From the NCBI GenBank assembly GCA_020351775.1, contig CP070666.1:3297180-3361179 (forward strand): 64,000 nucleotides of DNA. Direction: 5' to 3'. This document shows positions 36,366 through 39,491 of this stretch, piece by piece; the stretch's first letter is position 1; every line of letters starts with the position of its first letter. Below the pieces are notes generated by a model that searched no databases, was not told the origin of the DNA, and saw only the letters and a list, made by a program, of their open reading frames with translations. This DNA is from Gemmatimonadota bacterium. GTDB taxonomy: Bacteria; Gemmatimonadota; Gemmatimonadetes; Gemmatimonadales; GWC2-71-9. The translations under genes were made by a program, and so were the position numbers.

Positions 36366-36388
36366 AAAAGGGGCCGCTTTCCGACCCC
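36366..36388 (-). terminator. Intrinsic terminator/attenuator just upstream of gyrA
   Basis: On the minus strand, GGGGTCG, loop GAAAG and CGGCCCC (36388-36370) make a 7-bp stem with one G-T pair, followed by TTTTGTC (36369 downward). It can end transcripts of the BlaI/M56 operon or a small RNA from the upstream spacer. If the promoter at 36402-36430 is the gyrA promoter, the hairpin sits at the very 5' end of the gyrA mRNA. Confidence 0.6.
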
Positions 36389-36401
36389 TGGAGGTCCTTG
36401 C

Positions 36402-36655: not shown

Positions 36656-37873
36656 CTACCTCCGCTCAGCGATCGGCTGAAGCTTTCCCGTCTCCTCGAC
36701 ACCCCCTTTCTTGGTCGTTATGATCACGATGCCGTTGGTTGCACGGTCGCCGTAGATTCGCTGCGCAACGCTGTCTTTGATTACCTGGATGCTTTCGATG
36801 TTCAACGGGTCGAGCGTCTCGAGGATCTCGTGACGCTGTGTGTGCACTACTACGCCATCGAGCACAAACAGTGGCTCATCGCCTTCCCCTTGCCTCACCA
36901 TGACGGTCATGGCATCCCTTGCTTCGCCTACGAGCCGAGCCTGCGGTGTATTGCGCTCCAGAGTATCACCTGTCGGGGTCTCGCAGGCGAGCACCGCGAA
37001 CGTGACGGCCAGCGCCCCGCCGGCGATCGCCCGGCCCAGTCGCATACGTGGTTTCCAGGTCATGAGATGAATCCTCCTTGCCAACAAAGAGGTTTTCTTG
37101 ATGAACGCGAGGGTGGGCAGGTGGTGGCGCGCCGAACGGCCGCCGACCTCTAGCAAGAGAGAGCTGTAGGCGAGCACATCCACGCCGCGCCTGAGCATCC
37201 GCTCGTCGCAGTCGGCTTCGACCGCCTGGCGCAGACGCCGCAATTGGTACCACAGAGCTGGGTTCCACGGCGCTGCTACGACCAAGAATAGGCCGCCGAC
37301 CATGAGTGGGAGGTCCGCTGCACGCAGGTGCTCCTCTTCGTGCAGCGAAATCAGCCGCTGGACATCGTGCTCCAGCTCGAGCACCCAAGCGGGAACCACT
37401 ATCGAGGCTGCACGAATCCCAACCACTGCAGGTCCCACATCAACACTCAGCCAGGCCGTGCCGCCTCCCACACTCACGCGTTCCCAGTCACGCCTTTCTC
37501 GGGCCAGCCGCCGGACCGACCAAAGAAACAGGACGAAGAGGCCGCCGGTCATGGCACACCAGACCGCCAGCAGCGGAACGTCCAGCCTGGCTGACCACGG
37601 TTGCGGAACAGTCATGGAACCAATTACGGGCGGCAGCACCAAGGTCTCCGCACGGCTCACGAGATCGCCCACCAGGGAGCCAGCGCCGCCGACCGGATGC
37701 AGGTCAGGGGCTACCACACCCACGAGGAGCAGGGCGATCGACCCCGCCAGGGCCACGACCCAGACCCAGCGCGCCGACCGCCCATACACCCGTAGACCAG
37801 CCTCAGCTGCCCTCGCCGCGAGTGCCAGAAACGTGGCAGTCACCAGAGCGTAGACCATCAATTGGGCGATCAT
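36656..37873 (-). CDS. M56 (BlaR1-like) membrane metallopeptidase with TonB-plug-like C-terminus
   Basis: A 405-aa integral membrane protein with several N-terminal helices, a zinc site HEEEHLRAADLP (HExxH) at about 178 and the third-ligand region EADCDERMLRRG, as in BlaR1/MecR1 sensors. After a further hydrophobic stretch, residues about 325-395 look like the plug domain of TonB-dependent receptors (PLFVLDGVVVH, IESIQVIKDSVAQRIYG, NGIVIITTKKG). BlaR1 has a penicillin-binding domain at this place instead, so the signal is probably not a beta-lactam. It overlaps the BlaI gene by ATGA. Confidence 0.88.
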   Translation of the reverse strand: MIAQLMVYALVTATFLALAARAAEAGLRVYGRSARWVWVVALAGSIALLLVGVVAPDLHPVGGAGSLVGDLVSRAETLVLPPVIGSMTVPQPWSARLDVPLLAVWCAMTGGLFVLFLWSVRRLARERRDWERVSVGGGTAWLSVDVGPAVVGIRAASIVVPAWVLELEHDVQRLISLHEEEHLRAADLPLMVGGLFLVVAAPWNPALWYQLRRLRQAVEADCDERMLRRGVDVLAYSSLLLEVGGRSARHHLPTLAFIKKTSLLARRIHLMTWKPRMRLGRAIAGGALAVTFAVLACETPTGDTLERNTPQARLVGEARDAMTVMVRQGEGDEPLFVLDGVVVHTQRHEILETLDPLNIESIQVIKDSVAQRIYGDRATNGIVIITTKKGGVEETGKLQPIAERR

Positions 37874-38244
37874 CGCTCTACCTCCCCCAGCCGCTCGTCC
37901 AGCATCCGCCGGATCCGACGCAACTCGTCTTCCGACACCGCCTCGTCCGACAGCAGTCTAGCAACCAGTAGTTCCCGCGACCCCTGGTAGATCTTATCGA
38001 GGATCCGCCCGAGGACCTTTTCTCCAGCAGTAGCTGGCTCGACAGTGGGGAAGTAGCGGAACGCCTTACCCTCCAACTCGTGGCGCACATACCCCTTGGC
38101 TTCGAGCCCCCGAAGGACTGTGAGCACGGTCGTATAGGCAAGCTCCTCAGTGAGGGTCTCCTGTACCTCGGCGACCGTCGCGGATCCCGTCTCCCACAGG
38201 ACTGCCATCACGTCCAGTTCCCGGTTGGTCAGGTGGAGAGACAT
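37870..38244 (-). CDS. BlaI/MecI family transcriptional repressor
   Basis: A 124-aa winged-helix repressor. The N-terminal DNA-binding domain shows LTNRELDVMAVLWETGSATV and TVLTVLRGLEAKGYVRHE; the C-terminal helices form the dimer (LDKIYQGSRELLVARLL). In BlaI the M56 partner cleaves the repressor between the two parts, near the Phe/Asn pair; the loop KAFRYFPTVEPA may hold such a site. It is first in a two-gene operon with the M56 protein and probably represses itself; an inverted repeat 80 bases upstream is a candidate operator. Confidence 0.93.
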   Translation of the reverse strand: MSLHLTNRELDVMAVLWETGSATVAEVQETLTEELAYTTVLTVLRGLEAKGYVRHELEGKAFRYFPTVEPATAGEKVLGRILDKIYQGSRELLVARLLSDEAVSEDELRRIRRMLDERLGEVER

Positions 38245-38324: not shown

Positions 38325-38342
38325 TTACTATATACTTAGTAA
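38325..38342. promoter_or_regulatory. Inverted repeat, candidate BlaI operator
   Basis: TTACTA (38325-38330), six bases TATACT, then TAGTAA (38337-38342) form a perfect inverted repeat in an AT-rich spot upstream of the BlaI start. Size and symmetry suit a small dimeric repressor, but it does not exactly match the BlaI TACA/TGTA core. Confidence 0.35.
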
Positions 38343-38435: not shown

Positions 38436-39491
38436 CTAGTCCCTGTTCGGCGACCCGGTGGGCCGGGCCGGCACCCATGCCATGCCGTCGGGCTCGTCGC
38501 CAGCCAAGATCTCGCCAGCCAGTGTCCAGTTGACTAGATCGATGACCGAAACCTTGTCGTCCGCCGTGTTGGCCACGTACGCGGTCTCGTTATCCGGCGT
38601 GATCAGGATCCCCACCGGAAAGGCTCCGATCTGCAGCCGGCGGACCACTCGCCAGCCGACCACGCTGACAGCCACGACTTCGCTGCCGCGGGCGTTGGAG
38701 ACCAGCAGTTCTGTTCCGTCGGGCCGCATCTTGACTCGGATCGGGAACTCACCGACCGGCAGCGTGCGGATCACCTGGTTGCTGGCGACATCGATCTCAG
38801 ATAGCGTCCCCGCGACCCGATTGGTCACGTACACTCTGTCCCCGTCAGGCGACACGTCGATTCCCTCGGCGCCGGCACCCGTCTGGATATGCGCTAGCAC
38901 CTTTCCCGTCCGGGCATCGATCGCCGTCGAAGTTCCGCTGCCGATATTGGCGGTGTAAACCCGCTGCTGTCCCTCGGAAATCGCGACTTGGTGGGTCACA
39001 TCCTGCGAGGTCTCGACCTCCTGCAGTATGCGGCGCCCGATCGGATCGATGTGCAACACGTGCTGCGATCCTTCCGTTGTCACCCAAATTGTCCCGTCCG
39101 AAGCAGCCACGATGCCGTGGGGTCGGCTGTGCGGCGACAGGGACATGGCGCCCAGTGAAATGCCCTGCTCCAGATCTACGATGGTGATCGTGCTCCCTGG
39201 CTGAGCGCCAGTCCCGTAGTCGGTCACGTACGCCAGCAGGCCGTCGGCAGACACGGCAACCTCATGCGGTGCGAATCCAGCCGGGACCACTCCGATTTCT
39301 TGCCGTGTGGAGGGGTCGACGATGGACACGCTGTTCGAACTCTTGTTCACGATTAGCAGCCGCTGCGCCGCCGCCTGCTGCGGCGCCGCAGCAAAGCCAG
39401 CAAGAACGAGCACCAGAGCAGCTTCGGCCGGAAACGTGGCTCGACTCAGGCGGGGCCTCCTCGAGATGTGCCAGATCGAGTTCACTTCCAC
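38436..39491 (-). CDS. Exported YVTN/YncE-type beta-propeller protein
   Basis: A 351-aa secreted protein. An N-terminal signal with a long polar head ends QQAAAQR. Seven-bladed propeller repeats follow, each with the YVTN-like line: LLIVNKSSNSVSIVDPST, LAYVTDYGTGAQ, RVYTANIGSGTSTAIDAR, RVYVTNRVAGTLSEID and TAYVANTADDKVSVIDL. Such proteins bind ligands, matrix or partners at the cell surface; no enzyme residues are seen. It lies 145 bases after the efflux operon on the same strand and is separated from it by a hairpin terminator, so it is transcribed on its own. Confidence 0.88.
   Translation of the reverse strand: MEVNSIWHISRRPRLSRATFPAEAALVLVLAGFAAAPQQAAAQRLLIVNKSSNSVSIVDPSTRQEIGVVPAGFAPHEVAVSADGLLAYVTDYGTGAQPGSTITIVDLEQGISLGAMSLSPHSRPHGIVAASDGTIWVTTEGSQHVLHIDPIGRRILQEVETSQDVTHQVAISEGQQRVYTANIGSGTSTAIDARTGKVLAHIQTGAGAEGIDVSPDGDRVYVTNRVAGTLSEIDVASNQVIRTLPVGEFPIRVKMRPDGTELLVSNARGSEVVAVSVVGWRVVRRLQIGAFPVGILITPDNETAYVANTADDKVSVIDLVNWTLAGEILAGDEPDGMAWVPARPTGSPNRD

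Follow-up and report, generated by a model that had tools for sequence, protein, structure and literature searches.

What does a BlaR1-type regulatory pair respond to when its sensor end is a piece of a TonB-dependent receptor plug? To our knowledge, the signals of the widespread BlaR1 relatives are known only for beta-lactams. The question is raised by two genes in a 64-kb stretch of Gemmatimonadota DNA (the window), from a genome that is a single contig of 5.5 Mb. The blaI ORF is located upstream and the M56 ORF follows with an overlap of 4 bases, both on the minus strand (Table 1), which places a BlaI repressor and an M56 protease in one operon, as in BlaR1-type pairs. Besides Penicillinase_R, Pfam finds weaker helix-turn-helix families in the BlaI ORF. 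Two families match the M56 ORF above their curated cut-offs, namely Peptidase_M56 at E 1.6e-13 and Plug at E 2.8e-7, and no further family does.

Table 1. Features of the BlaI/M56 locus, with positions in the window
Feature	Position	Strand	Size or basis
M56/BlaR1-type membrane metalloprotease with plug-like tail	36656..37873	-	405 aa; ORF, Pfam, AlphaFold model, BlaR1 fold
BlaI/MecI/CopY-type repressor	37870..38244	-	124 aa; Pfam PF03965 (Penicillinase_R), E 5.1e-31
Zinc motif HEEEH, residues 178-182	37328..37342	-	translation; H178, E179 and H182 invariant in 63-row alignment
Final transmembrane helix (residues 278-297), resembling the signal peptide of a lipoprotein	36983..37042	-	model; Cys297 at 36983-36985
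Periplasmic tail, Cys297 to end	36659..36985	-	predicted lipoprotein after putative processing
Plug core, residues 334-388, C-terminal half of SusC/RagA plug	36710..36874	-	Pfam, PDB sequence, NCBIfam, fold
Putative BlaI operator TACTA-N6-TAGTA	38326..38341 (18-base form TTACTA-N6-TAGTAA, 38325-38342)	-	0 mismatches
Terminator-like stem-loop between M56 gene and gyrA-like gene	36369..36389	-	consensus match only

The structure of the protease core is similar to that of BlaR1. The model built on 63 relatives has a mean pLDDT of 83, compared to only 39 for a single-sequence model, and its residues 2-265 match S. aureus BlaR1 (8ext) with a Z score of 17.3 and an rmsd of 2.8 over 225 residues. Residues H178, E179, H182, D187, E219, D223, Y236 and R267 are invariant across the 63 aligned rows. 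The BlaR1 literature (PMC9834060) names H201, H205, E242, D246, D210, Y261 and R294 as catalytic, and spacing and alignment equate these with H178, H182, E219, D223, D187, Y236 and R267, respectively. The M56 protein keeps all of the catalytic residues so named together with the M56 fold, and is a BlaR1-type protease. A sequence-only reading of this DNA had proposed an HExxH zinc site and a BlaR1-like membrane part; the HEEEH motif, the Peptidase_M56 match and the fold bear this out. Pfam assigns neither a penicillin-binding nor a beta-lactamase family to the protein, and the NCBIfam model blaR1_generic gives 22 bits against a cut-off of 400.

The same reading had placed a plug-like domain at the periplasmic end, instead of a penicillin-binding domain, and had suggested structure prediction against SusC plugs; Pfam, PDB sequences, TIGR04056 and the fold comparison all agree with it. 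Among PDB sequences, the last 109 residues match a SusC homologue (E 1.4e-10 over 62 residues) and RagA (E 3.4e-10). The tail aligns with model positions 140-209 of the 981 in TIGR04056 (SusC/RagA; E 3.1e-18) and also matches TIGR04057, with scores under the whole-protein cut-offs in both cases, as expected of a fragment. Foldseek superimposes it on 8a9y over 59 columns (2.1 Å, 47% identity), and the match to 6zlt has a Z score of 4.3 over 74 residues, a low value being expected at this length. The nearest SusC-type chains in the fold comparison share 36-48% identity with the tail, the match lists bearing only on the families that they contain. The plug match is far beyond chance. In place of the penicillin-binding domain, the protein ends in the C-terminal half of a SusC-type plug. 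Only this second half is clearly matched; nothing of the first half is recognisable with confidence, and no TonB box is evident in the tail. The protein stops 17 residues past the plug core and has no 22-strand outer-membrane barrel, so it is not a TonB-dependent receptor.

The new part of this architecture is located at the joint between core and tail; plug tails as such are a domain combination that is known, or at any rate in plain view. Lys/Arg residues precede the last helix, which ends in VLAC (residues 294-297) and is followed by ETP. VLAC fits the lipoprotein-type pattern (of the PROSITE type, scored 105-140 residues after HExxH), at an internal rather than an N-terminal position. For its conservation, 172 M56 ORFs were reduced to 161 by dropping 11 that were short or without the motif, and to 102 at under 80% identity; this set derives from the best-scoring matches of the window protein in Gemmatimonadota and is biased towards its kind. 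The pattern is present in 82 of the 102, exactly at +120 from HExxH in 45 of them, although some matches are dubious, for example one at +112 inside the helix. About 2.4 matches would be expected from the background in the remaining core (18 in 28,050 positions). A stricter four-letter rule retains 78 of the 102. In a second sample, from an HExEH motif search in named organisms and overlapping the first in part of its genomes, 64 of 79 usable proteins (80 loci) have the lipobox. In comparison, it is found in 4 of 33 other M56 proteins of Gemmatimonadota collected by Pfam (12 of the 42 loci there having no usable protein) and in none of 7 from Bacteroidota. Two alignments carry less information: A2 holds lipobox-bearing rows only (45 of 78), where a conserved Cys has no weight, and A3 is not limited in this way, yet has few rows without the lipobox. 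In a small sample of Myxococcota relatives, a lipobox-like Cys ends the helix in L253 and L265 alone, which are very close. A disulfide role of Cys297 within the tail was considered and rejected, as a second Cys is missing from 69 of 78 tails.

The lipobox is not distributed evenly over tail classes. It is found in all 42 plug tails, the one tail with both plug and TonB_C, 25 of 42 TonB_C tails and 14 of 17 others. With 17 of 42 TonB_C tails lacking it, it is not required for every tail. The link between plug and lipobox is inseparable from descent (three usable pairs), and kinship may explain it.

Plug tails are common, accounting for about 40 of the 102 non-redundant Gemmatimonadota relatives, and the TonB C-terminal domain forms the other large class. 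Pfam assigns TonB_C to 42 tails, Plug to 38, CarboxypepD_reg families to 2 and ExbD to 2; our own profiles give 43 each for Plug and TonB_C, with one tail counted in both, and the counts vary slightly by method. The earlier suggestion of plug-like tails in further M56 proteins therefore holds, at 38-43 of the 102 Gemmatimonadota relatives and 1 of 7 Bacteroidota proteins. The latter come from plasmid-labelled records with seven M56 loci, where the same half plug is present in one (57.5 bits) and TonB_C in three. Reportedly, surveys of TonB proteins have listed M56-TonB fusions. In named genomes, relatives of the window protein are almost all in Gemmatimonadota records, with few otherwise titled (one Myxococcales, some Gammaproteobacteria), and none were found in the viral contigs searched.

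The window genome contains a second BlaI/M56 pair (L003/L036, G000:C1:4706815-4708600), with a TonB_C tail and its own exact operator. In a tree of the core, the window protein and this paralogue are sisters (SH-aLRT 95), and the plug/TonB_C label requires 7 changes, at least 3 of them forced by well-supported branches. These label changes, together with a plug/TonB_C sister pair in one genome, show that TonB-system tails have been exchanged on one chassis. The sequence-only reading had overlooked this sister, as well as the lipobox (VLAC, Cys297) and the operator before blaI.

Several M56 genes show other arrangements. Plug and TonB_C occur together, in either order, in the tails of L078, L192 and L182 (the latter two by eye), and two or three M56 genes, mostly plug-tailed, lie next to each other at L087, L108 and L131. 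Two further M56 genes of the window genome (L001 and L002) have a HELAH motif and repeat tails without a lipobox, and both are accompanied by a BlaI-like gene of their own; the repeats are HEAT-like in L001 and of the DSDYELAELLI type in L002.

The genomes with M56 relatives also hold short genes that encode a signal peptide and a plug with no barrel. Sixteen of 21 such free-standing plug ORFs have a lipobox, after three edge or long rows were dropped; the five without it include L029, possibly a truncated receptor, and L032, which is counted twice. These genes suggest that, in this phylum, the plug also serves as a lipoprotein apart from the protease. The window genome has two free plug lipoproteins (L351, G000:C1 near 4851402, plus strand; L352, G000:C1 near 3617089, minus strand). 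Besides these two, small free-standing SusC-type plug proteins are spread over many genomes of the phylum (L030, L334, L336-L346, L348 and L350), most with a lipobox, and some retain a SusC-like VGYGTQ stretch close to the start.

The putative operator is located about 80 bases upstream of blaI, and presumably resembles the staphylococcal bla/mec operators. Allowing up to two mismatches, the window has 2 matches, compared to 0.11 expected. The exact 16-base core occurs at only 2 sites in the 5.5-Mb genome, each before one of the two related BlaI/M56 pairs. The shared 15-base form has no site in this genome at one or two mismatches, and a site with three, at L038, appeared to sit within a coding stretch. 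At loci of the window kind, a perfect operator precedes blaI in 15 of 23 (L016 being cut off, and duplicates of the window dropped). Across 15 genomes there are 20 exact sites, 14 at pairs of the window kind, 1 at another BlaI/M56 pair and 5 elsewhere. A reversed control pattern is equally or more frequent (5 compared to 2 forward sites in the window genome, 20 compared to 20 in the 15 genomes), and it is therefore the placement of the sites, 15 of 20 at BlaI/M56 pairs, and not their number that is informative. Judged from the sequence, BlaI likely controls its own operon from the putative operator. A wider BlaI regulon in the window genome was set aside as unproven, exact sites being present only at both pairs. 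In two related genomes (L371 and L372), an exact operator is found 25 kb from the M56 pair, before what by eye is a CDP-alcohol phosphatidyltransferase-like gene.

Besides BlaI, no family recurs widely among the compared neighbour genes of the M56 relatives, and no beta-lactamase or mecA-like gene was noticed adjoining the window pair. A YncE-like beta-propeller gene (by Pfam) is located directly upstream of blaI, at window positions 38436-39491. Six-bladed propeller genes also adjoin M56 genes at L380, L385, L083, L077, L069 and L147; one lies immediately 3' of the M56 gene in 4 of 104 loci, and a Parabacteroides operon combines a beta-propeller (DUF4934) with an M56 gene. Terminator-like stem-loops number 2 in the 64-kb stretch by consensus match, compared to 1.2 expected.

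The account that we prefer, to which we give an even chance, is that the tail is processed as a lipoprotein and that BlaI is regulated via the state of the tail. BlaI would repress its own operon from TACTA-N6-TAGTA. The M56 protein would be inserted with the zinc site facing the cytoplasm and the tail in the periplasm. Lgt would lipidate Cys297 and LspA, which is encoded in the genome (E 5.1e-36), would then cut before it. The protease core would stay in the inner membrane, whereas the plug lipoprotein may be carried to the outer membrane and come close to TonB-dependent receptors. Whether the protease cleaves BlaI would depend on the tail: on whether it is still joined to the core or has been cut and lost, and on whether it is free or touches TonB or a receptor. 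An outer-membrane receptor or its peptide as the source of the signal, as the sequence-only reading had it, is a conjecture. In E. coli, an Asp after the Cys keeps lipoproteins at the inner membrane; the residue after the lipobox Cys is often Asp in the relatives, which makes the proposed sorting less certain. A literature search, with most subscription journals outside its scope, retrieved no account of M56 proteins with plug tails or of lipoboxes among the relatives of BlaR1, and no precedent for cutting of the last helix of a polytopic protein by LspA. According to PMC9834060, S. aureus SpsB (signal peptidase I) cuts BlaR1 behind the last helix at Gly331, the sensor is shed, and the G331K mutation abolishes the cutting. 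Gly331 is at +130 from the first zinc His, and Cys297 at +119. Since BlaR1 is cut by a signal peptidase at the matching place, the simplest reading of the joint is that signal peptidase II is used there and that the sensor would become a lipoprotein. In a more specific and speculative form, which we consider unlikely as it stands, the Gemmatimonadota M56/BlaI pair would be a split receptor: the released plug or TonB_C lipoprotein would be bound for the outer membrane, and the protease would register directly when maturation of the lipoprotein fails or is slowed, or when the TonB system captures it, and relay this to BlaI, so that the pair would monitor both lipoprotein traffic and TonB-dependent transport.

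The main rival of processing plus regulation is a classic BlaR1-like receptor whose tail stays attached through the last helix and responds to a ligand in the periplasm or to touching TonB or a receptor, Cys297 being lipidated at most as an extra anchor and never cut. The attached domain does the sensing in BlaR1 (PMC9834060). The same plug and TonB_C tails occur without a lipobox in Bacteroidota, whose proteins, if functional, would manage without one, and 17 of 42 TonB_C tails in Gemmatimonadota also lack it. A consensus lipobox at a fixed place in 82 of 102 relatives would, however, have no evident purpose if it were never cut, and we consider this rival a serious one with a lesser chance of being right. 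The tail lipoprotein could also be the product and not the sensor, with the pair controlling mainly its own synthesis and the freed plug or TonB_C lipoprotein influencing TonB-dependent transport, for instance as a competitor of the receptors. The exact operators mostly at BlaI/M56 pairs, the scarcity of recurrent neighbours and the existence of free plug lipoproteins favor such a product; the half plug without an evident TonB box, the 5 of 20 exact sites away from such pairs, and an operator search that would miss diverged sites elsewhere argue against it, and it seems rather improbable to us.

Two further explanations are less probable. The tail might be a passive remnant of a gene fusion, and the lipobox might simply follow from the alanine richness of the helix. 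The helix is rich in Ala, Leu and Val and the tails vary widely, yet Cys makes up only about 1.1% of core residues elsewhere and is fixed at one place in most relatives, and the plug core is retained across phyla, which leaves a remnant with a slim chance. Slimmest of all is the chance of an ordinary beta-lactam sensor, for which the BlaI/BlaR1-type core and the operator-like site would speak; we rejected it, as the M56 protein has no penicillin-binding or beta-lactamase family and the tail is a plug. If processing plus regulation is true, one protein couples lipoprotein maturation to transcription. This would be a new and testable twist on a known sensor type, with the sensor end perhaps detached and then anchored as a lipoprotein of its own.

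Compared to known systems, the locus combines familiar parts. Bacteroidota M56 proteins with TonB_C, CarboxypepD_reg-like (by eye) or plug tails (L380, L382, L384, L385 and L386) have the same chassis and tail modules, and differ from the window protein in the absence of the lipobox noted above. The window tail matches the conserved second half of the SusC/RagA plug (PF07715, TIGR04056/TIGR04057), including NIESIQVIKD...YG..A.NGIVIITTKKG; unlike the receptors, it is barrel-less, has no confidently recognised first half and is fused to a protease. The BlaR1/BlaI (MecR1/MecI) systems of Staphylococcus and Bacillus likewise have an overlapping repressor/protease pair, the BlaR1 fold, the catalytic residues and an operator-like palindrome. 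The tail of BlaR1 also lies outside the inner membrane after the last helix, as here, and is cut at this joint by signal peptidase (PMC9834060). The window protein differs: it has a half plug for the penicillin-binding domain and a lipobox, of the signal peptidase II type, for the signal peptidase I site. In one phylum, TonB-module tails sit on a putative lipoprotein cutting site, where signal peptidase I trims BlaR1.
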